A stretch of DNA of 64,000 bases, taken from assembly GCF_947496515.1 (NCBI RefSeq), contig NZ_CANMDB010000009.1, forward strand, positions 62,001-126,000. Reading direction: 5' to 3'. Made by a program: the position numbers and the translations under genes. The notes under the pieces are model-generated. The model searched no databases and had not been told where the DNA came from. It saw nothing but the letters and a program-made list of their open reading frames with translations. Shown piece by piece: positions 48,960-63,748 of this stretch. Every line of letters begins with the position of its first letter. The stretch's first letter is position 1. Source of the DNA: an uncultured Roseobacter sp. Its GTDB lineage: Bacteria; Pseudomonadota; Alphaproteobacteria; Rhodobacterales; Rhodobacteraceae.

Positions 48960-49016
48960 ACTCGCTGCAGTAGTGATACGGTTGTTTCTGTAAAAGTGCT
49001 GAGGTTTAGTTGCGTT

Positions 49017-50513
49017 ATGAGTCCTAGGTTTATGTCCAAGATGCCGCGGCGTGCATTCCTGACAGGGGTCATCGCCGCGGGCGCTGGCCCGGTGCTTGGC
49101 GCAACCCCTGCTGTTTCCCTGCGGCCCCGGCTGCGTCCGGCGCGGGCGGTCGGGCCCGCGGCTCTGGCGGGTATGATCCGCGGTGCAGGTGTCAGCGGTC
49201 AGATCGCCTGCGCGGTGGCGGATGCGGAAACCGGTGAGATCCTGGAGGGGTATGCAACCGCCACGCGGCTCGCGCCCGCAAGCGTGACAAAGGCTGTGAC
49301 GGCGCTTTACGCTCTCGAAACGCTGGGCTCCGATCATCGGTTCACAACGCGGGTCGTGGCGACGGGCAAGATCACTAACGGCATTCTTGCGGGCGATCTG
49401 GTGCTCGTGGGTGGCTGTGATCCGACGCTTGATACACGCGGGCTCGCAGCACTCGCCGAAGGGATGAAAGCCGCCGGTATCCGGGAAGTGCGTGGGCGCT
49501 TTCTGGTTTATGAGAATGCGCTGTCGCCGATCCGGACGATTGATCCTGATCAGCCGGACCATCTTGGGTACAGCCCCGCTGTGTCCGGCCTCGCGCTCAA
49601 CTACAACCGTGTCCATTTCGAGTGGAAGCGTCAGGGGGCCAAGTACCTTGTGCGGATGGATGCGCGCACAGCGGGTTACCGGCCCGAGGTGCAAGTGGCG
49701 CAGATGCGCGTGGTGGATCGCGCCACGCCGGTCTACACCTATACGAATGGCGGCCAGCAGGATCACTGGACCGTGGCCCGCGGCGCGCTCGGCTCGGAAG
49801 GGGCGCGCTGGCTGCCGGTCCGCCAGCCGGGTCTTTACGCAGGCGACGTGTTCGCCACCCTTGCGCGCAGCCACGGCATCGTGCTGGGGGCACCGGAGCT
49901 GATCGAAGGCGCCCCGGTGGGAGAAGACGTAGCCACCGTGGACAGCCCGCCGCTGCGTGAGGTTTTGCAGGGGATGCTGAAGTACTCCAACAACCTCACG
50001 GCAGAGATGGTGGGCCTCGCCGCAACGGCACAGCGGGTGGGCCGCGCCCCGACACTGGCCACCTCCGCGCTGCACATGAACCTCTGGGCGATGCAGTCGC
50101 TGGGGATGGAGAGGCCCGGGTTCGCGGATCATTCCGGCCTTGGCAGCGCCAGCCGGATCAGCCCGGCGGATATGGTCCGGGGGCTGGCCGCCGTCCACCG
50201 CGCGGGGGCGCTGCGCCCGATCCTGAAACCGGTCACCATGCGGGACACCAAGGGTCGGCCCGTTGCGGACCATCCTGTCAAGGTGGTCGCCAAGACCGGC
50301 ACGCTGAATTATGTCTCGGGTCTCGCGGGGTACATCAAGACAACCGGTGGCCGCGATCTGGTCTTTGCGATCTTCAGCGCCGACGAAGATGTCCGTGCGA
50401 CCATCACCCGCGCCAACCGGGAACGCCCGGCAGGCGCCCGCGCGTGGGCGTCTCGCGCGCGACGGTTGCAACGGCGTCTGTTGTCCCGGTGGGGTACTGA
50501 AATCAGCGGATGA
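49017..50513 (+). CDS. dacB: DacB-type D-alanyl-D-alanine carboxypeptidase/PBP4 with Tat-like signal
   Basis: A 498-residue S13 penicillin-binding protein trimming peptidoglycan in the periplasm. The N-terminus reads MPRRAFLTGVIAAGAGPVLG, a twin-arginine-like signal, whereas enteric DacB uses Sec. Active-site motifs are SVTK (SxxK, in APASVTKAVTAL), SNN in YSNNLTAEMVG, and KTG in VAKTGTLNYVSG, each at family-like spacing. Start is uncertain: ATG 49017 is used, 49032 is possible. It stands between nadD and the TRAP genes, with a 187-bp non-coding stretch afterwards. Confidence 0.9.
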   Translation: MSPRFMSKMPRRAFLTGVIAAGAGPVLGATPAVSLRPRLRPARAVGPAALAGMIRGAGVSGQIACAVADAETGEILEGYATATRLAPASVTKAVTALYALETLGSDHRFTTRVVATGKITNGILAGDLVLVGGCDPTLDTRGLAALAEGMKAAGIREVRGRFLVYENALSPIRTIDPDQPDHLGYSPAVSGLALNYNRVHFEWKRQGAKYLVRMDARTAGYRPEVQVAQMRVVDRATPVYTYTNGGQQDHWTVARGALGSEGARWLPVRQPGLYAGDVFATLARSHGIVLGAPELIEGAPVGEDVATVDSPPLREVLQGMLKYSNNLTAEMVGLAATAQRVGRAPTLATSALHMNLWAMQSLGMERPGFADHSGLGSASRISPADMVRGLAAVHRAGALRPILKPVTMRDTKGRPVADHPVKVVAKTGTLNYVSGLAGYIKTTGGRDLVFAIFSADEDVRATITRANRERPAGARAWASRARRLQRRLLSRWGTEISG

Positions 50514-50700: not shown

Positions 50701-52008
50701 TTACAGGCTCGGCAACCAAAGGGCGATACCGGGGAACAGGATCAGCAAGGCCACCAGCACCAAGGAACAGCCGATGAAGGGGAAGGCGGAAGTGTAGATT
50801 GTCCGCATCGTCGTGCCTTTTGGCGCCACTCCCTTCATCACGAACAGCAGTAACCCAAAGGGTGGCGTGGTAAAGCTGATCTCCAGCGCCAACAGCATGA
50901 TCAGCCCGAACCAGATCGGATCGAACCCCAGCGTCTGTGCGAGGGGGAAAAAGATCGGCACCGTAAGCAGCATGATGGAGATCTGCTCCATAAACATGCC
51001 CAGCAGCAACAGTACCGCGAACATTGCCAGCAGCATGGCAAGCGGTGCCAGATCGTAGGAGGTCGCCCATGTGATCAGCCCGCTGGAGGCACCGGAAAAC
51101 GCCAGAAGCTGGCTGAACGTGGCGGAGCCGAAGACGATCAGATAGGCCATCAGCGTCACCTTGAGCGCGCCGATGACCGCCTTGCGGATCGCCTCCCACG
51201 TGAGGCACCGAAAGACGGCGGCCAGGATAAGGACCCCGAGCGCGCCAAAGGCCGCTGCCTCGGATGGCGTGATGAGCCCGTTGATCATGCCGATGACGAT
51301 CAGCACCATCACCCCGATCATCGGGACGACTTCGCGCAGCAGCAGGCCGATCTTGGCAGCCAAGGACAGGGGTGTGACGTCGTAGGCGGGGGCGGCCTCC
51401 GGATTGATCCGGGTTTGCAGCCAGATCGTTCCGATGTAGAACAGCGCCAGAATGAGCCCGGGCACGACACCGGCGATCAGCAGGGCCGCGACATCAATCT
51501 GCGCCAGCGTCGCCAGCAAGACCGCCAGCGCCGAAGGTGGGATGATGATCGCCAGCCCACCGGTGCCCAGAATGGGACCAATGCTCATATGCGGCTTGTA
51601 TCCGCGTTGCGTCATCTCCGGCACCATCAGCGAGCCCAGAAGCGCTGTCGATCCCATGGACGACCCCGACAGGGTGGAGAACGCCGTGCCGCCTAGTACG
51701 GTCGCGTAGCTCAGCCGCCCCGGCAGCCGCCCCAGCAGCCGGTCGATGGCGTTGAACATGCGCCCGCCCAGCCCGGTGTGAAAGAAGATTTCGCCCATGA
51801 GCAAGAACAGCGGGATTGGCACCAGCGCGTATTTCGTCAGTGACCCCAGACCGTTATTGAGCAGTTGCCCGATGCCACGTTCGCCCCCCATAAACACCCA
51901 TGCACCGAGGATATTGGCCGCCAGAAAGGCAATCGCCACAGGCATGCCAAGCGCCATCAGCGCCATGATCGTGCCCACCAGCAGCGCCAGAGCCTCGTAC
52001 CATTCCAT
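50701..52008 (-). CDS. dctM: DctM-type TRAP transporter large permease
   Basis: A 435-residue, very hydrophobic permease with about 12 membrane segments, the transport subunit of a sodium-driven TRAP system. Family features include LLMGEIFFHTGLGGRMFNAI, TVLGGTAFSTLSGSSMGSTA and IGPILGTGGLAIIIPPSAL, with a C-terminal EISFTTPPFGLLLFVMKGVA. The ATG overlaps the dctQ stop by one base. Substrate is unknown. It is the last gene of the GntR-leuCD-dctPQM strand. Confidence 0.94.
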   Translation of the reverse strand: MEWYEALALLVGTIMALMALGMPVAIAFLAANILGAWVFMGGERGIGQLLNNGLGSLTKYALVPIPLFLLMGEIFFHTGLGGRMFNAIDRLLGRLPGRLSYATVLGGTAFSTLSGSSMGSTALLGSLMVPEMTQRGYKPHMSIGPILGTGGLAIIIPPSALAVLLATLAQIDVAALLIAGVVPGLILALFYIGTIWLQTRINPEAAPAYDVTPLSLAAKIGLLLREVVPMIGVMVLIVIGMINGLITPSEAAAFGALGVLILAAVFRCLTWEAIRKAVIGALKVTLMAYLIVFGSATFSQLLAFSGASSGLITWATSYDLAPLAMLLAMFAVLLLLGMFMEQISIMLLTVPIFFPLAQTLGFDPIWFGLIMLLALEISFTTPPFGLLLFVMKGVAPKGTTMRTIYTSAFPFIGCSLVLVALLILFPGIALWLPSL

Positions 52009-52505
52009 TATTCGTGGATCCCGGCTTCACCGCTGTGCAGGATGTCCTGTCCGGCAACGAACCTTGCGAACTCCACCGCCATCAGGCCAAAACTCAGCGG
52101 AAAGGCGACGGTCAGGAGCCAGCGGGGATAGTAATAAGCGCGGGTATCCACGTCGCCGCGCGCGATATTGGTGAGGAAAAGCTCCGCCCCTTTCCACGCA
52201 AGCACGCCGCAGACAAGCACGCAGGCCGCGGCGACCAGACGGCTGACAATCCGGCGCAGCCGGGCGGGCAGAACGGCGGTGACCAATTCGATATGAACGT
52301 GGCCCCGCTCGCGCACCAGCCAAGGCGCACCCAGCATGGTCATGTAAAGCAGCCCGTATTCCGCGGAGGTAAAGAGCCAAGCAAAAGGCTGCAGCCCGAG
52401 GTTGCGCATCAGCACGGATGTCACCACCGATACCATCAGCCAGACGAGCGTCATGCCAGCGATGATCGCCATCGCGAAAAGCAGCGCGTCATAGGCTCGG
52501 CTCAT
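52008..52505 (-). CDS. dctQ: DctQ-type TRAP transporter small permease
   Basis: A 165-residue, four-TM small subunit (segments near ALLFAMAIIAGMTLVWLMVS and VAAACVLVCGVLAWKGAELF, among others). The conserved LGAPWLVRERGHVHIELVTA lies about residue 60-80. The ATG at 52505 is preceded by GGAG. It follows the binding-protein gene, with a stem-loop in between, and overlaps dctM by one base. Confidence 0.91.
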   Translation of the reverse strand: MSRAYDALLFAMAIIAGMTLVWLMVSVVTSVLMRNLGLQPFAWLFTSAEYGLLYMTMLGAPWLVRERGHVHIELVTAVLPARLRRIVSRLVAAACVLVCGVLAWKGAELFLTNIARGDVDTRAYYYPRWLLTVAFPLSFGLMAVEFARFVAGQDILHSGEAGIHE

Positions 52506-52532
52506 GGGGCAGTCTCCGCGGGGCAAAAGAGA

Positions 52533-52556
52533 GGGGCCTGCGCATTGGCAGGCCCC
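52533..52556 (-). promoter_or_regulatory. Stem-loop after the TRAP binding-protein gene
   Basis: A perfect 9-bp stem (GGGGCCTGC at 52533-52541, GCAGGCCCC at 52548-52556, loop GCATTG) lies seven bases after the dctP stop and before dctQ. No T-run follows. It is placed like the stem-loops after the two polyamine binding-protein genes. Confidence 0.6.
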
Positions 52557-52563
52557 CGAGGTA

Positions 52564-53577
52564 TCAGTTGGCGCTGTCCAGATCGTAGAAGAGCTCGATC
52601 AGCCGGTCGTAGTTGTCGGTACCTCCGGGCTGCTCTGCCATCAGGTTTGACATCCGCTCCCAAGTCTTTTCGCGTGCGGCAGCCAGATAGTTGGCCTTGG
52701 CCTCTCCCTCCAGGGTGATGACCTGCATGCCTGCTTCTTCAAGCCGGGCGAAGTCCTCATCGCGTTTGACCTGCAGCGCCTCGACGCTGTCCTTCTCGTG
52801 CTGGATGGCCACGTCTTGCAGGATGGTGCGGGCCTCGTCGGACAGGGCGTTCCAGCTTTCCAGATTGACGATCACACCGAGGTCCGTGGAGAAAAAGCAA
52901 GGCTCGATCCGGTAGTTCAGAAACTCGTTCCATTTCAGGTCAATAAGGCCGATCTGGGTCCAGCCGGTCGCATCCACAACACCACGCTGCAGCGCAGCAT
53001 AGACCTCGCCCGTTGGTAGGTCGATCACCTGCGCACCGAGGTAGTTTGTAAAGAAGGCGTTATAGACGTTGTTGCCGCGCAGCTTCAGCCCGTCCACCTC
53101 CAGATTGCCGTCGGCGTCAAAGGAGGGCGCGTCGCGGGTCCAGAGGTTGTAGCAAACGCCGCTGTCAAACCAACCGAGATACTTCAACCCCATCTTTTCC
53201 TGGTGGATCTGGTCGATGAGTTCGATGCCACCGTTCTCGCGGGTCTCCACCGCTGTCAGGTTGGAGGCGACCATGGCGTCCTTTTCCGGCAGCGCACCGC
53301 CGTAGAAGGATCCGGGGGTGTAGACCATGTCAACAATCCCGTCGCGCACCGCATCGGGCTGCTGGAACATGCCGATGGCTTCGGGTCCGCCACGCACGTC
53401 GATCTGTATGACGCCTTCGCCTGCCTCGTTCACCTTGTCCACGAAGGACAGAAAGCTTTGCGTGTAGATCAGCGTTTCGGGAAAGGCATGGACCGCCGTG
53501 ATCGTCTCTTCTGCCTGCGCCAGCCCGGCGGCGAGGGTAGAGCCAGCGAGCAGCCCGCCAAGAAATGTCTTTTTCAT
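52564..53577 (-). CDS. dctP: DctP-type TRAP transporter substrate-binding protein
   Basis: A 337-residue periplasmic binding protein. Signal peptide: MKKTFLGGLLAGSTLAAGLAQA-EE. The mature part shows VDKVNEAGEGVIQIDVRGGP and VDGLKLRGNNVYNAFFTNYL, where DctP proteins carry the carboxylate-binding Arg, and VYAALQRGVVDATGW. The ATG at 53577 has GGAG upstream; a longer frame is not supported. It is 71 bp downstream of leuD. By family, the ligand is most likely a carboxylate, matching the dicarboxylate-type enzymes around it. Confidence 0.93.
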   Translation of the reverse strand: MKKTFLGGLLAGSTLAAGLAQAEETITAVHAFPETLIYTQSFLSFVDKVNEAGEGVIQIDVRGGPEAIGMFQQPDAVRDGIVDMVYTPGSFYGGALPEKDAMVASNLTAVETRENGGIELIDQIHQEKMGLKYLGWFDSGVCYNLWTRDAPSFDADGNLEVDGLKLRGNNVYNAFFTNYLGAQVIDLPTGEVYAALQRGVVDATGWTQIGLIDLKWNEFLNYRIEPCFFSTDLGVIVNLESWNALSDEARTILQDVAIQHEKDSVEALQVKRDEDFARLEEAGMQVITLEGEAKANYLAAAREKTWERMSNLMAEQPGGTDNYDRLIELFYDLDSAN

Positions 53578-53648
53578 TGTTTTCTCCACTGTTCGGGGTG
53601 TCATGTTACGTCTTTCGCGGAACCACCATGACCCCTGTTGATGCGCCG

Positions 53649-54268
53649 TCATGGCGCGTTTATCTGCTTTGCCGGCAGAGCACCGGGCATGGATTTGACA
53701 TGAGCGTCTCTGAACGACGCAATCGCCGATTGGTGCTGCAGGGTCAGGTCAATATCATCCCACCCGTTGATCAGCTTGGTCCGCCAGCTCTCATCCAGCT
53801 GAAAGGGAATGCGCTGGCCGGCAAGGCTGATCCAACCGGCGGAGAGGTCGATGTCCACCGGCTGTGGGTCATCTTGCAATATTTCGGCCAGCGATTGCGC
53901 CTCTGCCTCCGAGACCCGCCCGGGCAGGAGACCATTGTTGACGGCATTAGCGGCGAAGATGTCGCCGAAACTCGGGCCGACGACGGCTCTGATCCCCGCA
54001 TCAACCAGCGCGTAGACGGCAGCTTCCCGTGATGATCCGCTGCCGAAATTCCGGCCGACGACCAGCACGCAGACATCCTCGTGTCGGTTGAGAGGGAAAT
54101 CAGGATGCGGTGCACCCTGTGCATCGCGCCGCAGGTCGTGCATCAGAAACCGGCCGTACCCATCGGCGCGTGGGGCCGACATGAAACGCGCGGGGATCAA
54201 CTGATCGGTATCCAGGTTATCCATGGGTAACCTCAGGGCCGTGCCGCGATGGGTGCGCCAGCCCGCCA

Positions 54269-54269
<1 letters not shown>
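53649..54269 (-). CDS. LeuD-like hydro-lyase small subunit
   Basis: A 206-residue small subunit of an aconitase-superfamily dehydratase. LeuD-type features are LPMDNLDTDQLIPARFM, VVGRNFGSGSSREAAVYALV and GPSFGDIFAANAVNNGLLP. It starts one base into the large-subunit stop (TGATG). The canonical leucine genes in this order of bacteria usually lie with leuB, which is absent here, so this is probably a paralogue. In position it belongs to a TRAP/GntR catabolic cluster, so the substrate may be a methylated or otherwise branched unsaturated dicarboxylate rather than isopropylmalate. Confidence 0.88.
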
Positions 54270-55671
<1,402 letters not shown>

Positions 55672-55675
<4 letters not shown>

Positions 55676-56475
55676 GCAGAGGCCTCGTTCGGTTTGCCGA
55701 TCACCGGTTCCCAATGCCGTGCCTGCTCGCTGCCGACACGGGCCAGCGGCATCTCCAGCTGAAACATATCCGGACGATACAGCGCGGCGAGGTATTCGAC
55801 CCCGTTGCCGTTCACATCTCGGACCATGCGCCGCAGCGACAGCAGGGCGACACCAACGTCAACCGCCAGCGCCTCGGCAACCTCCGGTCCGGCGAGCGTT
55901 GCCGAAACCGTCTGATGCGCTTCGGCGATCTGCACCCCGCTGCGCTCCAACAGACGGAAAAGCGGTGTCGTTGCCAGATCGTTTTCAGAGTAGTTCTGCG
56001 CGATCCCGGCGGGCACATAGGTTGTCAGGTGGGAGAACGGCGTGTCGTCAACACTGCGGACCCGCGTGGCGATCTGTACTTGGTCCGCCGGGTTCAGAAG
56101 CATCGCCGAGGCGACAAACCCCGGCGCCGAGCCATAGGAGAAGGACAGGAGCCGGGCCGTGGTGTTCTGCCCGATATCCACAAGCTGGGGCATCAGCGTC
56201 GACAGGTTCATGGAGACAGGACCCGCAGACGTCGTCTTACTTCGTACAATCGTCCCGCTGCCTGCGCGCCGTTCGACTAGCCCTGCAGCTCTGAGACTTT
56301 CCAGGGCCCGCCGGATGGTCACGCGCGAGACGGAAAACTGTGCCGCCAGTTTCTGCTCTCCGGGCAGGTGATCGCCAGCGTTCAGGCGCCCGGCGGAGAT
56401 CTCATCGTGCAGCGCGAGGTAGACACGACGTGCCTTTGCTCCTTCGGGGAGCATTGGTTCGACCACCGTGTTCAT
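55672..56475 (-). CDS. GntR-family regulator, HutC (UTRA) subfamily
   Basis: A 267-residue regulator. The winged helix (about 15-80) reads FSVSRVTIRRALESLRAAGL and VERRAGSGTIV, and a UTRA ligand domain (about 105-260) follows, with LTTYVPAGIAQNYSEND and RRMVRDVNGNGVEYLAALYR. It is the first gene of the leuCD-dctPQM strand, divergent from the SnoaL-hydantoinase operon by 124 bp. Control of both arms by this single regulator is the simplest reading. Effector unknown, presumably the pathway substrate or an intermediate. Confidence 0.91.
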
Positions 56476-56539
56476 TGCACTAAGTCCTGGCTCATAGCCG
56501 CAAGAGTACAGTTGGTTCGACGAAAATCAAGCTTTTGTC

Positions 56540-56575
56540 TTAACAAGAGGCTATAAACGGTATTATAGAAAATAC
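56540..56575. promoter_or_regulatory. Candidate promoter and operator in the GntR-SnoaL divergent gap
   Basis: TTAACA (56540-56545) and TATAGA (56564-56569) are spaced 18 bp and face the SnoaL operon. GTATT (56560-56564) and AATAC (56571-56575) form a 5-bp inverted repeat with six bases between, overlapping the -10. This is a plausible operator for the divergent HutC-type regulator. Confidence 0.4.
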
Positions 56576-56599
56576 AGGTTTAGCGGTTGGAGGGGCAGA

Positions 56600-57154
56600 A
56601 TGGCCGTTGTCGAACTTCGGATTGGTCAGGATTATGGTCCTGATGCGGAAAGCCGATTGAGTGCTGCTTTGACCGACGCGGTGCGCGAGGCGCTGCCCAC
56701 AACACCGGACGAGATCGAGGTCAAGATCCGCAAAGCGCCGATGGCAGAGACCGTCGCAGAGGCTGTTCCCGCAGGTCAGCTTGATCCGGCAACCGTCGCC
56801 CGGCGATTTCTGGCAGCGATGGAGCGGCGCGAGATCGCGACCGCCCGCGCCATGGTGACCCAAGATTTTACCATGCAGTTTCCCGGAGCACCGCAGATCA
56901 CGGACCTGCGCCGTCTGGTTGAATGGTCCGCCTCGCGCTACCGGCATGTGACCAAGACCTACAGCCGTTTTGACGTGCTGGACGTTGGCGGGGTTTCGGC
57001 CGTGGTCTATTGCACCGGTACGCTTTCGGGCGCCTGGCCGGACGGCACCCCATTTGACGGCATCCGCTTCATCGACCGGTTCGAGATCGAGGGTGGCAAG
57101 ATTGTCCGGCAGGAGGTTTGGAACGACATAGCGGAGGCCCGGGCGCGCAGATGA
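56600..57154 (+). CDS. SnoaL-like protein with an N-terminal tautomerase-like segment
   Basis: A 184-residue two-part protein. Residues 1-60 (AVVELRIGQDYG, RLSAALTDAVREALPTTPDE, IEVKIRKAP) resemble a 4-oxalocrotonate-tautomerase beta-alpha-beta unit, but Pro1 is replaced by Ala2 (MAVVE), so this part is probably not an active tautomerase. Residues 65-184 form an NTF2/SnoaL fold (VARRFLAAMERREIATARAM, GVSAVVYCTGTLSG, FIDRFEIEGGKIVRQEVWND). First gene of the plus-strand catabolic operon; the stop overlaps hyuB (ATGA). An isomerase, hydratase or cyclase-like role is possible; none is proven. Confidence 0.8.
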   Translation: MAVVELRIGQDYGPDAESRLSAALTDAVREALPTTPDEIEVKIRKAPMAETVAEAVPAGQLDPATVARRFLAAMERREIATARAMVTQDFTMQFPGAPQITDLRRLVEWSASRYRHVTKTYSRFDVLDVGGVSAVVYCTGTLSGAWPDGTPFDGIRFIDRFEIEGGKIVRQEVWNDIAEARARR

Positions 57155-58845
57155 GCGAGATTGATCCCATTACCCTGTCAGTGCTCGCCGGTCGGATGGA
57201 GCAGATTGCTGACGAGATGGATGCGACGCTCTTTCGGGCGGCGTTCAACCCGATCATCGCGGAGGCGCATGACGCCAGCCACGGTCTTTACGCCGCGGAT
57301 ACGGGCGACACGCTGGTGCAGGGAAAGTCGGGCCTGCCGATCTTCGTGGGTGTGATGTCCTTTGCGGTGAAGGCGGTGATCGACAAGACCGCAGCGGAGG
57401 GTGATCTGCAGGATGGCGACATCTTTATCTTCAATGACGCGCATATCGGCGGGACGCATTTGTCGGACATGCGGCTGGTGCGGCCCTATTTCCATGAGGG
57501 TCAGCTGTTCTGCTACCTCGCATCCGTCGGGCATTGGCATGACGTGGGCGGTGCCGTGCCCGGCAACTACAACCCTGCGGCCACGGAGGTGTTTCAGGAG
57601 GCATTCGTGCTGCCACCCGTACGGCTGGCGCGGGCGGGCGAGATCAACCAGGACATCATCGACATCCTGATGCGCAATACCCGGCTGCCGCAATCGGCCA
57701 TGGGGGATCTCAACGGGCAGCTGGGGGCGCTGGATCTCGGGGTGCGGCGGATGGATGAGCTGTTGGACGAATACGGTGCGGAGACTGTGCATGCTGCGCT
57801 CGATGCGCTCGGCCACCGGGCAGAGGCGTTGATGCGCGCGGAACTGGCCGCTTTGCCGGATGGTCGGTGGGAAGCTGAGGACTTCCTCGACAATGACGGG
57901 ATCACCGATGAGCCCTTGCCCATCAAGGTGGCGCTGGAGATTGATGGCGACCGCATGGTGCTGGATTTTGCAGGCTCTGCGCCACAATGTGCAGGCCCGG
58001 TGAACATCGCCTTGCCGACCACCGTTGCCACCGCCTATGTGGCCATCAAGCACATGTTTCCGGCCCTGCCCGCCAACGCGGGCGTGATGCGTCCCATCGA
58101 CGTGCGTGTGCCCGAGGGGGCGATCCTGTCCGCGGCATTTCCGGCCCCGACCGGCGGGTATACGGAGACGATCCTGCGGATGATCGACGTGATCTTTTCC
58201 GCCTTTGCGGGGGCTGCGCCAACGCGGGTGGTGGCCCATGCCTACGGGACGATCAATGCGCTGTCGATTGCCGGAAAACGCAAGGGCGGTCAGCCTTGGG
58301 TGATGTTCAGCTTTTACGGCGGCGGGCACGGCGGCTCGGTGGAGGGCGACGGGCTGAACCATGGCAATGCACCGATTTCGACTGCCACGATCCCGCCGAT
58401 GGAGATCCTGGAGGCGGCTTATCCGGTGATGTTCCGTCAGTGGGCTTTGCGTTCGGACAGTGCTGGAGCAGGGGCGCATCGCGGCGGTGTGGGGGCTGTC
58501 TACGAGATTGAAGTGCTGGAGGAGAACGGGGCCGAAGCGTTCCTCTTTGGTGAGCGGGGGCGTTTCGCGCCGAAGGGGATCGCGGAAGGTGGCGACGCGG
58601 CTCTGAACTGCTTTTCGTTCGAGCAGGACGCGGGTTGGGGCACTCCGCCATTGGCCTCGAAGATGCGCGGCATCACGCTGCGCCAGGGGCAGGCGGTACG
58701 GCTGGAGACGCCGGGGGGCGGTGGCTACGGTCCGCCGCAGGCGCGCGCGCCGTCAGCGGTGGCGCTTGATGTGGCGCGCGGGTTGGTCAGCGACACCGCT
58801 GCGGATGAAACCTACGGCCCGGCGTGGCGCGAGGTCCGCACGTGA
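57151..58845 (+). CDS. hyuB: Hydantoinase B / oxoprolinase family subunit
   Basis: A 564-residue partner of an ATP-dependent cyclic-amide (hydantoin, oxoproline) hydrolase or of an acetone-carboxylase-like enzyme. Family features are the N-terminal DPITLSVLAGRMEQIADEMD, FIFNDAHIGGTHLSDMRLVR, SVGHWHDVGGAVPGNYNPAA and the C-terminal VRLETPGGGGYGPP. Start ATG at 57151 overlaps the SnoaL gene, and its own stop overlaps hyuA (GTGA). Order B then A is less common than A then B. Substrate class: cyclic imides or lactams or ketones; not resolvable by motif. Confidence 0.92.
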   Translation: MSEIDPITLSVLAGRMEQIADEMDATLFRAAFNPIIAEAHDASHGLYAADTGDTLVQGKSGLPIFVGVMSFAVKAVIDKTAAEGDLQDGDIFIFNDAHIGGTHLSDMRLVRPYFHEGQLFCYLASVGHWHDVGGAVPGNYNPAATEVFQEAFVLPPVRLARAGEINQDIIDILMRNTRLPQSAMGDLNGQLGALDLGVRRMDELLDEYGAETVHAALDALGHRAEALMRAELAALPDGRWEAEDFLDNDGITDEPLPIKVALEIDGDRMVLDFAGSAPQCAGPVNIALPTTVATAYVAIKHMFPALPANAGVMRPIDVRVPEGAILSAAFPAPTGGYTETILRMIDVIFSAFAGAAPTRVVAHAYGTINALSIAGKRKGGQPWVMFSFYGGGHGGSVEGDGLNHGNAPISTATIPPMEILEAAYPVMFRQWALRSDSAGAGAHRGGVGAVYEIEVLEENGAEAFLFGERGRFAPKGIAEGGDAALNCFSFEQDAGWGTPPLASKMRGITLRQGQAVRLETPGGGGYGPPQARAPSAVALDVARGLVSDTAADETYGPAWREVRT

Positions 58846-60905
58846 GCGGGCGGATGATCGGTGTCGACGTGGGCGGGACCTTCACGGATGTCTTTGTGCT
58901 GGATGAAACAGATGGTACTGCCGCTGTCGCCAAGGTGCCCACAACCCGTCCTGACCAGTCGGGGGGCTTTCTCGACGGGATCGCGCGCAAGGTGTCCGAT
59001 CTCTCGGGGATCTCGGTCGTCGTGCACGGCACCACCGCTGGCACCAATGCGCTGTTGGAGCGCAAGGGGGCAAGGACCGGCGTCATCTGCACCGAAGGCC
59101 TGCGCGATGTGCTGGAAATGCGCCGCCGGGACCGGCCCCGCACCTGGGGTCTGCGCGGGGATTTCGAGCCCGTCGTGGACCGCCGCGACCGATTGGAAGT
59201 GCCGGAACGCACGCTCGCCGATGGCTCTATCCGTACCGCCGTGGATCTGGACGCTGTGCGTGCCGCGGCAAAGACCCTGCGCGCGCAAGGCTGCGAGGCC
59301 ATCGCCGTTCTATTTGCCAACGCCTACGCCAACCCGGCCAATGAGGCCGCGGCAGTTGCTGCGGTGCGCGAGATCTGGCCCAACGCTCATGTCTCCGCCT
59401 CCTCCGAAATCCTGCCGGAGATCCGGGAGTTCGAGCGGTTCTCGACGACAGCGCTCAACGCCTATCTGCAGCCGGAGGTTTCGGGCTATCTGGACCGTTT
59501 GGAGGGCGCTCTGAAAGCGGGCGGTTTCGCGGGCGAGTTCATGATCGTGCAATCGAACGGCGGTGTCATGGCGGTCGAGACCGCGTGCCGTCTGCCGGTT
59601 CGCACGGCGCTGTCCGGCCCCGCGGCTGGGGTAATCGCTGCGGGCTACATCGCGTCTGAGGCGGGGTTCGACAACGTGATCACCGGCGACATGGGCGGCA
59701 CCAGCTTTGATGTCTCGCTGATCGCGGAAGGCGCGTCGATGCTGTCGGCGCAAACCTCCATCGACTTCGGCATGGTCGTGCGCACGCCGATGATCGAGAT
59801 CACGACCATCGGCGCGGGCGGAGGCTCGATCGCCTGGGTGGACAAAGGTGGTCTGCTGAACATCGGACCCGAGAGCGCGGGGTCTGACCCTGGCCCGGTG
59901 GCCTACGGGCTGGGCAACGACCGGCCCACCGTGACCGATGCCAACGTGGTGCTAGGGCGGATCGACCCCGACAACCCCATCGGGGGCAAGCTCGAACGTC
60001 TTGATGTCGAGGCCGCCGGGGCTGCCATTGACACCCATGTGGCGCGTCCGCTGGGGCTCGACCGACTGGCCGCGGCGGAGGCGATCCTGCGGGTGGCCAA
60101 CTCGCGCATGGCTGGGGCCATCCGGCTGGTTAGCATCGAGCGCGGCTTCGATCCCAAGCGCTTTGCCTTCATGCCCTTTGGTGGGGGCGGCGCGCTGCAC
60201 GCAGGTGCCATGCTGGCGGAGGTTGGCATCGCACGCGCCATCGTGCCGCGTTACCCGGGGGTAACCTCGGCCATGGGCTGTGTGATTGCCGACATGCGCC
60301 AGGATTTTGTGCAGACGATCAACACCGGGCTCGCCGGTCTGGACGAGGCCGCGCTGGGCCGCTTCATGCAGGCCCATGCGGACGATGGCATGGCGTTGCT
60401 CGACGCCGCGCGCACCACCTTCGAGGCGCGCCGTGTCCAGTTCGAGCTCGACATGGCCTACGTGGGTCAGACCCATACGGTGCCCGTTCCGCTTGAGGTC
60501 ACGGTCAGCGCGGGCCGGATCACCCCGCCCAGCCGGTTGCAGATCGCGGAGGCTTTCGATGCGACCTATCAGGCGACCTTCGGTCGGCTTCTGAAAGACG
60601 GCACGCGGCGGATCCTCAACCTGCGCAGCGCTGTCATCGGTACCCGGCCAAAGTTCGATCTGATGACGCTGGCACCGGATGCAGGCGGCGCCTTTGAACC
60701 AAAGGCCACCCGTCAGGTGCACTTCGGCGATGCCTGGCACGCGACCGCGATCTACGACCGGCTGGCCCTGCCCGCGGGAACCGTCCTCAACGGCCCTGCG
60801 ATCCTGGAACAGCCGGATACCACGGTGCTGGTCGAACCCGGTCTGCGCGCCAGTATTGATGATTTCGGCAACACCATCCTCGCCCCGAAGGAGGCGCTTT
60901 CATGA
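58842..60905 (+). CDS. hyuA: Hydantoinase A / oxoprolinase family subunit
   Basis: A 687-residue ATP-binding subunit. The phosphate-binding motif is MIGVDVGGTFTDVFVLDE near the N-terminus and the second actin-like motif is GDMGGTSFDVSLI near residue 290. Other blocks are VHGTTAGTNALLERKG and FMPFGGGGALHAGAML. The GTG start overlaps hyuB; the stop overlaps the isochorismatase-like gene (ATGA). It couples ATP hydrolysis to ring opening or carboxylation with HyuB. Length is normal for the N-methylhydantoinase A type. Confidence 0.93.
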   Translation: MSGRMIGVDVGGTFTDVFVLDETDGTAAVAKVPTTRPDQSGGFLDGIARKVSDLSGISVVVHGTTAGTNALLERKGARTGVICTEGLRDVLEMRRRDRPRTWGLRGDFEPVVDRRDRLEVPERTLADGSIRTAVDLDAVRAAAKTLRAQGCEAIAVLFANAYANPANEAAAVAAVREIWPNAHVSASSEILPEIREFERFSTTALNAYLQPEVSGYLDRLEGALKAGGFAGEFMIVQSNGGVMAVETACRLPVRTALSGPAAGVIAAGYIASEAGFDNVITGDMGGTSFDVSLIAEGASMLSAQTSIDFGMVVRTPMIEITTIGAGGGSIAWVDKGGLLNIGPESAGSDPGPVAYGLGNDRPTVTDANVVLGRIDPDNPIGGKLERLDVEAAGAAIDTHVARPLGLDRLAAAEAILRVANSRMAGAIRLVSIERGFDPKRFAFMPFGGGGALHAGAMLAEVGIARAIVPRYPGVTSAMGCVIADMRQDFVQTINTGLAGLDEAALGRFMQAHADDGMALLDAARTTFEARRVQFELDMAYVGQTHTVPVPLEVTVSAGRITPPSRLQIAEAFDATYQATFGRLLKDGTRRILNLRSAVIGTRPKFDLMTLAPDAGGAFEPKATRQVHFGDAWHATAIYDRLALPAGTVLNGPAILEQPDTTVLVEPGLRASIDDFGNTILAPKEALS

Positions 60906-61522
60906 GCGAGCCTGCACATTGGGATCTGTCCCGGACCGCCCTGCTGACGATCGATCTGCAGAACGATTTTCTGCACCCCGAGGGGGCCTATGGCCGTGCA
61001 GGGCAAGGGGCTGACAGCATCGCCGCCCTGCCGCAAAGGATCGCGCCGCTGGTAGCAGCGCTGCGGGCGCGGGGCGGGTGCTATATCTCCGCTCAGTTCA
61101 CGCTGGTGCCCGACGCTGCCGGAGAGCCGTTGATCGCGCCGCATCTGAAAAAACTGCGACCGTTTCTGGGACGCGGCGATTTCGCCCCCGGCAGCTTCGG
61201 TCATGATCTGGTCGAGACCTTGGCACCCGCGGATTTCACCTTGGAAAAGGTTGCCTATTCCGCGCTCTACCAGACCCGGCTGGAATACATCCTGCGCGCG
61301 GTCGGCATCGACCACCTGATCGTCGGCGGTATCGTCACCAACGGCGGCGTCGCCTCGACCCTGCGGGACGCGCATCTGCGCAACATCGAAACCTGTCTGC
61401 TGACCGATGGCAGTGCCGCCTTTCGCGACGAGGTGCATGCGGCGACGCTGCTGTCGCTCGGCACGGTCACGCATCAGATGAGCTGTGCGCGGGCGCTGGG
61501 CTGGCTGGAGGGCGGGGTATGA
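60902..61522 (+). CDS. Isochorismatase-fold hydrolase lacking the cysteine nucleophile
   Basis: A 206-residue isochorismatase-superfamily protein. Conserved parts are the N-terminal acid in LLTIDLQNDFLHPEG and a Lys in EKVAYSALYQTRLE. Where amidases of the family have T-N-x-C-V, this protein has VTNGGVASTLRDA, with Gly in place of the catalytic Cys. This resembles PhzD/EntB-type isochorismatases, which lack the Cys and act on vinyl ethers by acid catalysis. So it may not be an amidase. It overlaps hyuA and the next lyase by four bases each (ATGA), fully coupled. Confidence 0.85.
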   Translation: MSEPAHWDLSRTALLTIDLQNDFLHPEGAYGRAGQGADSIAALPQRIAPLVAALRARGGCYISAQFTLVPDAAGEPLIAPHLKKLRPFLGRGDFAPGSFGHDLVETLAPADFTLEKVAYSALYQTRLEYILRAVGIDHLIVGGIVTNGGVASTLRDAHLRNIETCLLTDGSAAFRDEVHAATLLSLGTVTHQMSCARALGWLEGGV

Positions 61523-62385
61523 GCCTGCGCGCACGGATCGCCTCCGATGAGATCCTTGTGGCCCCCGGGGTTTACGACGGGCTCACCGCGGCGATTGCCG
61601 CGTCAGCGGGGTTCGAGGCGCTCTATCTCAGCGGGGCGGCGGTCGCCTACACGCGGCTGGGGCGGCCTGACATCGGGCTGACCTCGGTCACCGAGATGGC
61701 GGACACGATGACGCTGATCGCGGACCGGACACCCCTGCCGGTGATCATCGACGCGGATACGGGCTTTGGCAACGCGCTCAACGCGCAGCGGACCATGCGG
61801 CTTTATGAGCGGGCGGGGGCCGCGGCATTGCAGGTGGAGGACCAGAGCTATCCCAAGCGCTGCGGGCATCTGACCGACAAATCCCTGATCCCCGCGGCGG
61901 AAATGGCGGGCAAGCTGCGCGCGATGGCGGATGCGCGACAGAGCGAAGAGACGCTGATCATCGCGCGCACCGATGCCATCGCGGTAGAAGGGTTCGACGC
62001 CGCCATCGACCGGGCGGAGCGGTATCTGGAGGCGGGTGCCGACGTGCTGTTCGTTGAAGCACCACAGAGCAGCGACCAGCTGGGCCAGATTGCGGGGCAT
62101 TTCGCAGGGCGCATCCCGCTACTCGCCAACATGGTGGAGGGCGGGGCGACGCCGATCACCGGGGCGGGGGCACTCCAAGAGCTGGGGTTTTCAATCGTGA
62201 TCTTTCCGGGCGGCATCGTCCGGGCGCTGGCGCACACCGCAGAGGCGTATTACGCCAGCCTGCGCGAAAACGGCAGCAACCGCCCTTTTGCCGACCGTAT
62301 GCATGACTTCGACGGGCTCAACGCAGTGATCGGCACGCCCGAGACGCTGGCGGAGGGGCGGCGCTATGACGGAAATGACGGCTGA
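61519..62385 (+). CDS. Isocitrate lyase/PEP mutase superfamily lyase (PrpB-like)
   Basis: A 288-residue TIM-barrel lyase. The metal site is VIIDADTGFGNALNAQRTMR and the active-site loop is YPKRCGH, with the lyase-type Cys (PEP mutase and oxaloacetate decarboxylase relatives lack this KRCGH block). This favours C-C cleavage of a 2-methylisocitrate- or 2,3-dimethylmalate-like 2-hydroxyacid, giving pyruvate or glyoxylate plus a second acid. It starts inside the previous stop, and the flavoprotein ORF overlaps its last 20 bases. Combined with the LeuCD-like hydratase, hydration then cleavage is a sensible route. Confidence 0.88.
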   Translation: MSLRARIASDEILVAPGVYDGLTAAIAASAGFEALYLSGAAVAYTRLGRPDIGLTSVTEMADTMTLIADRTPLPVIIDADTGFGNALNAQRTMRLYERAGAAALQVEDQSYPKRCGHLTDKSLIPAAEMAGKLRAMADARQSEETLIIARTDAIAVEGFDAAIDRAERYLEAGADVLFVEAPQSSDQLGQIAGHFAGRIPLLANMVEGGATPITGAGALQELGFSIVIFPGGIVRALAHTAEAYYASLRENGSNRPFADRMHDFDGLNAVIGTPETLAEGRRYDGNDG

Positions 62386-63748
62386 CATTGCCGCGCCACC
62401 CGCGGCGTTCGATCTGGACTGCGAAACGCTGATCGTCGGGGCGGGGGCGTGCGGGCTGGTGGCAGCACTTGCCGCCCATGAGGCCGGGCAATCGGTGCTG
62501 GTGATCGAGGCGGACCCCGTGCCAAGTGGCTCCACCGCGCTGTCGGCAGGGCTGATCCCCGCCGCAGGCACGCGCGCTCAAGCGGCCGCGGGGATCGTGG
62601 ATGACGCCCGGCGCTTTGCCGAGGACATTCAGGCCAAGGCAGCCGGAGAGAACGACCCGGATCTGGTGGAGCGGTTGGCCGCGCAGTCAGGCCCCGCAAT
62701 TGATTGGCTGAGCACGCGCTACGGGTTGCCCTTTTCGGTCGTGGCGGACTTCGATTATCCGGGCCACAGCCGCCGCAGGATGCACGGGCTGCCGAGCCGC
62801 GCGGGGACCGAGCTGATCGACAGCCTGCGCAGCGCTTGCGAGGCTGAGGCGCTCGACATCATTTGCGAGCGGCGGGCGCGCAGGCTCTACCACGCGGACG
62901 GTCGGGTGCGCGGTATATGCGTGCGGCGTCCCGACGGCGGGGAAGAGACGATTGGCTGCGAAAAGCTGATCCTCGCGTGCAACGGGTTCGGCGGCAACCG
63001 CAGGCTGGTCTCCGAACACATGCCGGAGATCGACGGTGGGCTGTGGTTCGGCCACGACGGCAACCGGGGCGAGGCGGTGCTCTGGGGCCGGGCGCTCGGC
63101 GCCGATCTGATGCATCTGGGTGCGTATCAGGGGCACGGCAATGTGGCCCACCCGCACGGCATTCTGATCACCTGGGCTGTCATCAGCGAAGGCGGTGTGC
63201 AGGTGAACCGCGACGGCGTGCGCTTCTGGAACGAGGCGCAGGGCTATTCCGAAGCAGCCCGCGCCGTTCTGGCCCAGCCCGGGGGAGAGGCCTTCAGCAT
63301 CTTTGACGTCCGCATCGCCGGGATTGCCCGCCAGTTCGAGGATTTCCGCCGGGCAGAGGCTGGGGGTGCGATCCGCGTAAGTGACACAGTGGAAGGGCTC
63401 GCGGTGAGCCTTGGCCTGCCTGCCGACGCCTTGGCCGAAACGCTGAGCGGTTTGCCGCAGAACGGCAGCGACAGGTTCGGGCGCAGCTTTGGCGGCGCGG
63501 CGCTGGCACCGCCATTCTGCGGCGTGCGGGTGACAGGGGCGCTCTTTCACACGCAGGGCGGGTTGCGCACGGACGAAAATGCCCGGGTCCTCAGGCCCGA
63601 CGGCACCGCGTTCGAAAACCTGCATGCAGGCGGTGGCGCGGCCTGCGGTGTGTCGGGCCGAGGCGATAGCGGCTATCTCTCTGGGAACGGGCTGTTGAGC
63701 GCTGTGGTGCTGGGCAGGCTGGCCGGGCAGGCGCAGATCACACGCTGA
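62366..63748 (+). CDS. FAD-dependent dehydrogenase/fumarate-reductase-type flavoprotein
   Basis: A 460-residue flavoprotein. The N-terminal dinucleotide motif is TLIVGAGACGLVAALAAHEA, with IEADPVPSGSTALSAG for FAD, and the substrate-domain motif ALFHTQGGLRTDENARVLRP, then HAGGGAACGVSG near the C-terminus, as in fumarate reductase/3-ketosteroid dehydrogenase relatives. It could introduce or reduce a C=C bond next to a carboxylate, like tricarballylate dehydrogenase. No signal peptide, so probably cytoplasmic. GGAGG lies nine bases upstream of ATG 62366. Last gene of the operon. Confidence 0.88.
   Translation: MTEMTADIAAPPAAFDLDCETLIVGAGACGLVAALAAHEAGQSVLVIEADPVPSGSTALSAGLIPAAGTRAQAAAGIVDDARRFAEDIQAKAAGENDPDLVERLAAQSGPAIDWLSTRYGLPFSVVADFDYPGHSRRRMHGLPSRAGTELIDSLRSACEAEALDIICERRARRLYHADGRVRGICVRRPDGGEETIGCEKLILACNGFGGNRRLVSEHMPEIDGGLWFGHDGNRGEAVLWGRALGADLMHLGAYQGHGNVAHPHGILITWAVISEGGVQVNRDGVRFWNEAQGYSEAARAVLAQPGGEAFSIFDVRIAGIARQFEDFRRAEAGGAIRVSDTVEGLAVSLGLPADALAETLSGLPQNGSDRFGRSFGGAALAPPFCGVRVTGALFHTQGGLRTDENARVLRPDGTAFENLHAGGGAACGVSGRGDSGYLSGNGLLSAVVLGRLAGQAQITR

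Follow-up and report, generated by a model that had tools for sequence, protein, structure and literature searches.

The methylcitrate cycle ends with hydration by an aconitase-family enzyme (AcnB) and cleavage by a PrpB-family lyase, which yields pyruvate and a dicarboxylate. In the nicotinate fermentation of Eubacterium barkeri, a hydratase of the LeuCD superfamily (DmdAB) is followed by dimethylmalate lyase, a member of the same superfamily as PrpB, and in the creatinine route, N-methylhydantoinase, a ring-opening enzyme of the HyuA/HyuB type, acts beside N-carbamoylsarcosine amidohydrolase, which has the isochorismatase fold. Here, we describe a conserved cassette of about a dozen genes that resembles each of these systems in part. 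It was found in a 64,000-nucleotide stretch of DNA from an uncultured Roseobacter sp. (referred to as the window here; positions 62001 to 126000 of contig C9 in the 4.9-Mb host assembly G000). One arm of the cassette encodes, in order from a central gap, a GntR/UTRA regulator, the LeuC-like and LeuD-like subunits of a hydratase, and the DctP, DctQ, and DctM components of a tripartite ATP-independent periplasmic (TRAP) transporter. The other, divergent arm encodes a tautomerase-like/SnoaL protein, the hydantoinase-type subunits HyuB and HyuA (HyuBA), an isochorismatase-fold hydrolase without the catalytic cysteine (the Cys-less hydrolase), a PrpB-like lyase, and a FAD_binding_2 flavoprotein. 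Judged by these families, the cassette looks like a system that takes up a small ring acid containing nitrogen and breaks it down. We consider it rather probable that it turns an unsaturated tricarboxylate into pyruvate and glutarate. Hematinic acid, together with a dihydro form that would enter via the flavoprotein, appears to be the most likely substrate, but this assignment is tentative and should be taken as the best single guess rather than as a finding.

The cassette differs from each of its closest relatives. Unlike the methylcitrate cycle, it has no synthase, its lyase scores below the PrpB cutoff and carries NMVEGG where E. coli PrpB has NITEFG near the pocket, and its proposed product is glutarate instead of succinate. 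Compared with the E. barkeri pathway, it lacks the mutase/isomerase set but has HyuBA, the Cys-less hydrolase, the TRAP transporter, and the GntR regulator, while it departs from the creatinine route in the missing catalytic Cys and in the hydratase and lyase that follow. Among NCBIfam models, HyuA and HyuB match the caprolactamase subunits CapAB best (NF050156 and NF050157), yet the scores of 506.2 and 313.1 bits are below the cutoffs of 1000, and the partner genes are different. The isochorismatases EntB and PhzD share with the hydrolase the fold, an Asp and a Lys, and a Gly at the Cys position (EntB as aligned, PhzD by sequence and fold match only), but no isochorismate or phenazine genes were seen in the block, and by sequence and fold rank the hydrolase is nearer to biuret and triuret hydrolases.

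Conservation of the cassette and its enzymes

The LeuC of the window recurs at 69 to 79% identity in 28 of the 197 other genomes of the family, the next one on the list reaching 58%, and the lyase is present at 59% identity or more in 37 of the 198 family genomes, which are the 29 LeuC carriers and 8 others. LeuC and lyase therefore occur together in the same 29 genomes, host included (our statements on clades are based on such identity gaps). Of the 28 relatives, 26 have the two arms side by side on a single contig, and in the other two (G119 and G041) the halves end at contig ends, so that the arms are conserved together, as the reading of the earlier note requires. Since the gene order is constant across genera and the genes outside vary by genome, a chance neighborhood was ruled out. 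The order is also identical in all three Sulfitobacter plasmid regions read, and these plasmids are typed as nonmobilizable in PLSDB. In one Sulfitobacter pontiacus strain, BL28 (AP027374.1, L008:6728-8793), HyuA is annotated as two overlapping open reading frames, suggesting that this copy may be broken or misread. The transporter type varies among relatives (TRAP, LIV-type ABC, or TTT binding protein), and no constant upstream step was found among the genes examined outside the core.

A profile of the isochorismatase-fold protein matched 22 of 337 genomes of the class and 8 of 398 genomes of the phylum (the host is counted in both), one of the latter (G870) lying outside the class. From a scan of named genomes with the Cys-less hydrolase, the best 80 of at least 378 relatives were kept, so that this set leans to close kin. 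The 80 loci contain HyuA (79), lyase (79), HyuB (75), flavoprotein (73), LeuC-type hydratase (72), and DctP (60); six of the DctP matches are only 46 to 52% identical and so belong to another TRAP system. The hydratase is not in view in 8 named loci. For seven of them (L094, L102, L120, L124, L146, L147, and L154), the contig is short or the locus is close to its end, while L142, where the hydrolase stands without HyuBA, is a real exception. This lone gene of Pseudooceanicola nanhaiensis (L142:10001-10576) follows a GntR-like gene and is located near TRAP-like and maleate-isomerase-like genes (neighbors named by eye), and its role may differ from that in the cassette. Among the 24 class and phylum loci, a hydratase is visible in 16 (5 LeuC type and 11 of another subfamily) and not in the other 8. 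Of these 8, L169, L170, L172, and L173 are close to a contig end, which is not the case for L184 and L187; in L182 and L183, HyuBA is missing as well. Two AT-rich loci, L081 and L084 (39% and 41% GC), yielded few called genes and were read by tblastn instead. Row counts over all loci contain some genomes twice, and distinct numbers are given alongside.

The LeuCD pair of the window is not the only one of its host, a possibility that had been raised earlier. A separate leuCD on contig C10 is 56% (LeuC) and 36% (LeuD) identical to it and carries the motif GSSREHAPWA, and a third aconitase-family gene is present as a 922-codon frame. In the cassettes, this LeuD motif is changed. Of the 110 rows with a motif (111 rows in total), 108 carry GSSRE[AG]A[VA]Y[AT]L (GSSREAAVYAL in 102 and three close variants in 6), and the last 2 carry GSSREQAAQAL. 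In all 8 family genomes that have only the lyase, the genes for lyase, HyuB, HyuA, and the isochorismatase-fold protein adjoin a different aconitase-family pair of the HacA/DmdA type, whose LeuC is 32 to 38% identical to that of the window. The six replacing large subunits scanned all pass PRK00402 and the homoaconitate-hydratase-family model TIGR01343 and fail the methanogen homoaconitase model, and the two small subunits scanned both pass the LeuD/DmdB model. The hydratase function is thus integral to the cassette, whereas the gene that provides it has been exchanged.

Isochorismatase-fold cysteine hydrolases usually carry an Asp-Lys-Cys triad, as stated in an excerpt of a published description (PMC3581539). 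In the cassette hydrolase, the Cys position is occupied by Gly in 145 of 146 rows and by Ala in one (140 distinct rows), its motif TNGGVAST corresponding to TEVCVQTS in triuret hydrolase (6xix) and TNVCVEST in E. coli RutB. Two alignments, of 12 and 19 rows, show no variation at Asp18 and Lys116. When aligned with the hydrolase and RutB, the E. coli enzyme EntB, which is a true isochorismatase, likewise has Gly at the Cys position. Given the missing Cys, we rejected an ordinary half-amidase identity for this enzyme; two nearby paralogues retain the residue. A predicted structure (predicted local distance difference test score, 90.5), which contains no ligand and informs on the fold only, comes closest to RutB and to the hydrolases of biuret and triuret, whereas PhzD ranks 41st. 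For HyuA, the closest solved relative is the N-methylhydantoinase 7hk5 (2.1e-131).

The catalytic loop of the lyase, PK[RK]CGH, is conserved in 140 of 140 rows (134 distinct). The flavoprotein had been described as fumarate-reductase-like, a label that is not supported at the level of the model or the active site: it scores below the cutoffs of the fumarate reductase model and the TcuA model (NF006130, 145.9 versus 369), and the Arg in TTRDKA of fumarate reductase, which we take to be the active-site residue R402 of FccA, aligns with the Tyr of QGYSEA. Tyr stands at this position in 120 of 121 flavoprotein rows, with one gap. The gene is absent from 7 of the 80 named loci. In L117 and L155, the sequence stops directly behind the lyase, and L142 has nothing but the hydrolase; L095, L128, L140, and L161 remain, suggesting that the flavoprotein is not essential.

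Glutarate genes of relatives and the proposed pathway

In a part of the relatives, the cassette also contains genes for glutarate use. Glutaryl-CoA dehydrogenase (GCDH) was found in 11 of the 80 named loci, 2 of the 24 class and phylum loci, and a Tistrella plasmid, and a CoA-transferase best matching the succinate-glutarate type in 10, 3, and the same plasmid, respectively. We checked the identity of these genes on L013, L126, and L167. In L013, the Tistrella plasmid, both sit between hydrolase and LeuC, and the best solved match of the GCDH is the human enzyme (1sir, 1.5e-185); for the dehydrogenase of L126 (Marivita), the top match 4w9u is labeled acyl-CoA dehydrogenase, and the other 9 of the 10 listed are GCDHs. 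The curated GCDH models are not passed (NF045552, 214.8 and 209.5 versus 470). Elsewhere, the glutarate genes lie 0 to 68 bp after the flavoprotein (after the lyase in L140), in loci labeled Nitratireductor, Cohaesibacteraceae, Marivita, Dinoroseobacter, Boseongicola, and Paracoccaceae. These two placements suggest two recruitments, and the L126 GCDH, which is 79% identical to the GCDH of the window host on another contig and 71% identical to that of Tistrella, also suggests a separate recruitment. Genome G116 has a second GCDH besides that of the cassette. No lyase is visible in L165 and L166, and a 68 to 69% identical lyase is encoded on another contig of the same genomes. The pathway seems to be split in two in these genomes, G358 and G456, where a second replicon or contig (L197 and L198) carries an old yellow enzyme (OYE), a GntR regulator, a LIV transporter, PrpD, the lyase, a flavoprotein, and an Asp/Glu/hydantoin-racemase-family gene.

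The association of GCDH and a glutarate-type CoA-transferase with the cassette suggests that the lyase products are probably glutarate and pyruvate (C5 + C3). Reading backward, a PrpB-type cleavage to these products would start from 2-methylhomoisocitrate, which would come from 2-methyl-cis-homoaconitate, and this, before the action of HyuBA and the loss of ammonia, from hematinic acid. The carbon count is exact (C8H9NO4 = C3 + C5 + N). Hematinic acid, 3-(4-methyl-2,5-dioxopyrrol-3-yl)propanoate, is a maleimide that arises from the oxidation of heme, bilins, and chlorophyll. The earlier note had proposed that a cyclic imide, possibly a maleimide of tetrapyrrole origin, is opened, hydrated, and cleaved to pyruvate and a short acid. 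This outline fits the evidence, but its examples of a dialkylmaleimide or a methylsuccinimide fit less well, since a glutarate product points to a ring that bears a propionate.

In the proposed pathway, the ring acid would be taken up by the TRAP transporter (in other hosts by a LIV-type ABC system), and HyuBA would open the imide with ATP to a half-amide, from which the Cys-less hydrolase would free ammonia. Dialkylmaleamic acids undergo attack by the neighboring carboxylate, and such an attack, combined with Asp/Lys chemistry, could substitute for the Cys. The flavoprotein would desaturate the succinate-type analogue, thereby admitting the dihydro form, a succinimide derivative such as the reduced ring of chlorophyll would leave. 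The LeuCD-type pair (elsewhere of the HacA/DmdA type) would then hydrate 2-methyl-cis-homoaconitate to 2-methylhomoisocitrate, which the PrpB-like lyase would cleave to pyruvate and glutarate. The latter would be handled by a CoA-transferase and GCDH, encoded in the cassette of some hosts, with GCDH on another contig in the window host. Regarding the origin of the substrate, excerpts of two reports state that E. coli ChuS releases hematinic acid from heme (PMC11442138) and that hematinic acid is present among leaf chlorophyll products (PMC7318184). The window host has pufL/pufM-type reaction-center genes outside the window (C10:95307-97012) and may thus be an aerobic anoxygenic phototroph. In line with a tetrapyrrole source, pufLM-type genes show a weak association with the cassette (19 of 29 cassette genomes versus 65 of 169 others, P = 0.008, uncorrected for kinship). 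OYE-type flavoenzymes are found in or near some cassettes (L011:14085-15056 and L057:17770-19878); the one in L011 matches two models, those of N-ethylmaleimide reductase and bilirubin reductase, with scores under the cutoffs.

Several observations weigh against this pathway. The window cassette has no glutarate genes, its host's GCDH being on another contig, and GCDH is found in 188 of the 198 family genomes, so that presence alone is uninformative and only linkage counts. The carriers of linked glutarate genes are a minority from few lineages: five loci are Marivita-like, and the genes of L165 and L166 are near copies of those on the Tistrella plasmid. The three CoA-transferases scanned score 533.1 (L013), 531, and 513.1 with their best model (succinate--glutarate, NF052585), below its cutoff of 750. 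The enzyme proposed for the half-amide step lacks the usual nucleophile and occurs without HyuBA in view in 3 of 104 loci (L142, L182, and L183), and the tautomerase-like, PrpD, OYE, racemase, and aminotransferase genes of some copies have no place in the scheme. Both LeuC and LeuD of the window pass the leuC and leuD cutoffs, which leaves a leucine-type activity compatible with these models. Heme oxygenase (PF01126) was found in none of 37 cassette genomes and in 3 of the 198 family genomes overall; the comparison itself is uninformative, but the compound would then have to be supplied from outside or made by other chemistry.

Glutarate could also be formed from another precursor, either a nonmethylated one of the homoaconitate type, which would give glyoxylate and glutarate, or a C7 to C8 lactam, hydantoin, or lactone, with the Cys-less enzyme hydrolyzing an enol ether or enamine as isochorismatases do. 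The EntB-like Gly, the HyuBA relatives, which span a hydantoinase, a lactamase, oxoprolinase, and carboxylases, and the match of six replacing large subunits to TIGR01343, though not to the methanogen homoaconitase model, are in line with such a route. We nevertheless regard it as rather unlikely, as the lyase resembles the methyl-accepting PrpB and retains the Phe of the LF-x-EA motif in six aligned copies, and we know of no abundant natural C7 analogue. Somewhat less probable still is that the same gene set converts a dialkylmaleimide or methylsuccinimide via a 2,3-dialkylmalate to pyruvate and propionate or butyrate, as in the end steps of the Eubacterium fermentation. The relatives of the lyase include 2,3-dimethylmalate lyase and the petal death protein, the two small subunits scanned are of the LeuD/DmdB type, and methyl ethyl and methyl vinyl maleimides are also tetrapyrrole derived, according to an excerpt of PMC7318184. 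This substrate would, however, leave the glutarate-type genes in the cassettes of some hosts without a role, and neutral imides would have no obvious need for a TRAP carboxylate carrier.

The locus might instead serve ureide or hydantoin catabolism, HyuBA and the hydrolase opening and decarbamoylating a hydantoin and the remaining organic-acid genes being loosely associated. The N-methylhydantoinase relationship of HyuA, the biuret, triuret, and RutB folds nearest to the modeled hydrolase, and Asp/Glu/hydantoin-racemase-family genes near L078, L197, L198 and L086, L106, L107 (one member scanned per cluster) would fit, but the amidase Cys is absent in 146 of 146 hydrolase rows, hydratase and lyase are conserved as tightly as HyuBA, and the core has no amino-acid enzyme, which makes this quite improbable. 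Finally, we give very little credence to a second leucine-pathway LeuCD placed by accident beside unrelated genes. Such a pair would pass the leuC and leuD models as observed, but a housekeeping leucine role was rejected in view of the separate leuCD of the host, the lyase that accompanies the pair in 29 of 29 genomes, and the changed LeuD motif, and elsewhere another hydratase type takes the place of LeuCD.

Gene layout, regulator, and shared gap

The earlier note had described two divergent gene runs with a 124-bp gap and a single GntR/UTRA regulator, and every gene that it named is present (Table 1). The arms span 50701 to 56475 (minus strand) and 56600 to 63748 (plus strand), with the gap at 56476 to 56599. 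Its list was correct but incomplete, as the genes at 56600 to 57154 and 60902 to 61522 had been omitted, and the tight overlaps that it reported hold for 8 of the 10 within-arm junctions (1 to 20 bp, window coordinates) but not for LeuD/DctP and DctP/DctQ. In the minus arm, GntR/LeuC overlap by 4 bp and LeuC/LeuD (LeuD start, 54269) and DctQ/DctM by 1 bp each. In the plus arm, the overlap is 4 bp between the first gene and HyuB, between HyuA and the isochorismatase-fold gene, between the latter and the lyase, and, if GTG 58842 is the HyuA start, between HyuB and HyuA; lyase and flavoprotein overlap by 20 bp.

Table 1. Features of the cassette in window coordinates
Feature	Position	Strand	Evidence and remarks
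DctM, TRAP large permease	50701..52008	-	PF06808 9e-76; TIGR00786 286.2 bits vs cutoff 268.45
DctQ, TRAP small permease	52008..52526	-	PF04290 1.5e-23; start TTG 52526 or ATG 52505
DctP, TRAP solute-binding protein	52564..53604	-	PF03480 4.4e-25; start 53604 or 53577
LeuD-like hydratase small subunit	53649..54269	-	TIGR00171 148.6 bits vs cutoff 116.25; motif GSSREAAVYAL
LeuC-like hydratase large subunit	54269..55675	-	PRK12466 709.9 bits; TIGR00170 605 vs cutoff 560.25
GntR/UTRA (HutC-subfamily) regulator	55672..56475	-	PF00392, PF07702
Candidate operator, inverted repeat GTATT-n6-AATAC	56560..56575	.	relatives have TGTAT-n8-ATACA
Tautomerase-like N terminus + SnoaL_2	56600..57154	+	PF12680 1.5e-9; consensus of 78 rows
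HyuB, hydantoinase B/oxoprolinase subunit	57151..58845	+	PF02538 5.5e-169
HyuA, hydantoinase A/oxoprolinase ATPase subunit	58842..60905	+	PF01968 2.9e-88; start GTG 58842 or GTG 58824
Isochorismatase-fold hydrolase without catalytic Cys	60902..61522	+	PF00857 3.3e-27; TNGGVAST; D18, K116 retained
PrpB-like C-C lyase	61519..62385	+	PF13714 4.2e-44; TIGR02317 291.8 bits vs cutoff 354.4; PKRCGH motif
Stand-alone FAD_binding_2 flavoprotein, fumarate-reductase/TcuA-like	62366..63748	+	PF00890 3.7e-53; TIGR01813 220.9 bits vs cutoff 285.45

All three components of a TRAP transporter are present, and the best solved relative of DctP is 4mnc/4mni (6.6e-52). The TRAP arm is bounded by a convergent gene for an S13 D-Ala-D-Ala carboxypeptidase (48996-50513). 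Conservation within the cassette is lowest for the first gene of the plus strand; its homologue in NZ_CP025809 is labeled “tautomerase family protein.” The tautomerase-like N-terminal Pro is present in more than 80% of 78 rows and replaced by Ala in the window copy, where the gene starts (56600-56608) with M-A-V-V-E-L against M-P-I/V-V-E-L in most relatives, so that the catalytic-type Pro1 has been lost.

The designation of the regulator as HutC type is right at the subfamily level (GntR plus UTRA), but the HutC model itself is not passed (TIGR02018, 109.7 bits versus 220). In the gaps of relatives, measured between the match edges of the flanking genes, whose start codons are not proven, 39 of 90 distinct ones contain an exact TGTAT-n8-ATACA, a count that did not exceed 3 for any motif across 200 shuffles. 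If up to 2 mismatches are allowed, the repeat is found in 68 of the 90, at a median of 21 nt before the plus-arm-side gap end. This conserved inverted repeat is probably the operator bound by the GntR regulator.

Novelty and biological meaning

Judged from titles and abstract openings, none of the literature matches listed deals with this gene set or with the breakdown of hematinic acid by bacteria, and no bacterial route was seen among them for the small maleimides left by macrocycle breakage. As far as these matches go, the pathway is undescribed, although it is built of known families. The full proposal is that Alphaproteobacteria, many of them with reaction-center genes, own a dedicated and sometimes plasmid-borne pathway that mineralizes hematinic acid, as the maleimide end product of tetrapyrroles, along with the dihydro form, yielding ammonia, pyruvate, and glutarate, via a Cys-less amide hydrolase that exploits a carboxylate of the substrate. 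Taken with all its parts, this proposal must be regarded as doubtful. Even with another substrate, the cassette would represent an uncharacterized pathway, whose genes are annotated as leuC, leuD, and cysteine hydrolase in the plasmid records read, labels that will lead leucine and amidase annotation astray. Chlorophyll turnover amounts to about 10^12 kg yearly, according to an excerpt of PMC7318184. If the proposal is true, this widely found gene set would make bacterial maleimide breakdown testable and provide a genomic marker for it, and a Cys-less mechanism would be added to the cysteine-hydrolase fold.

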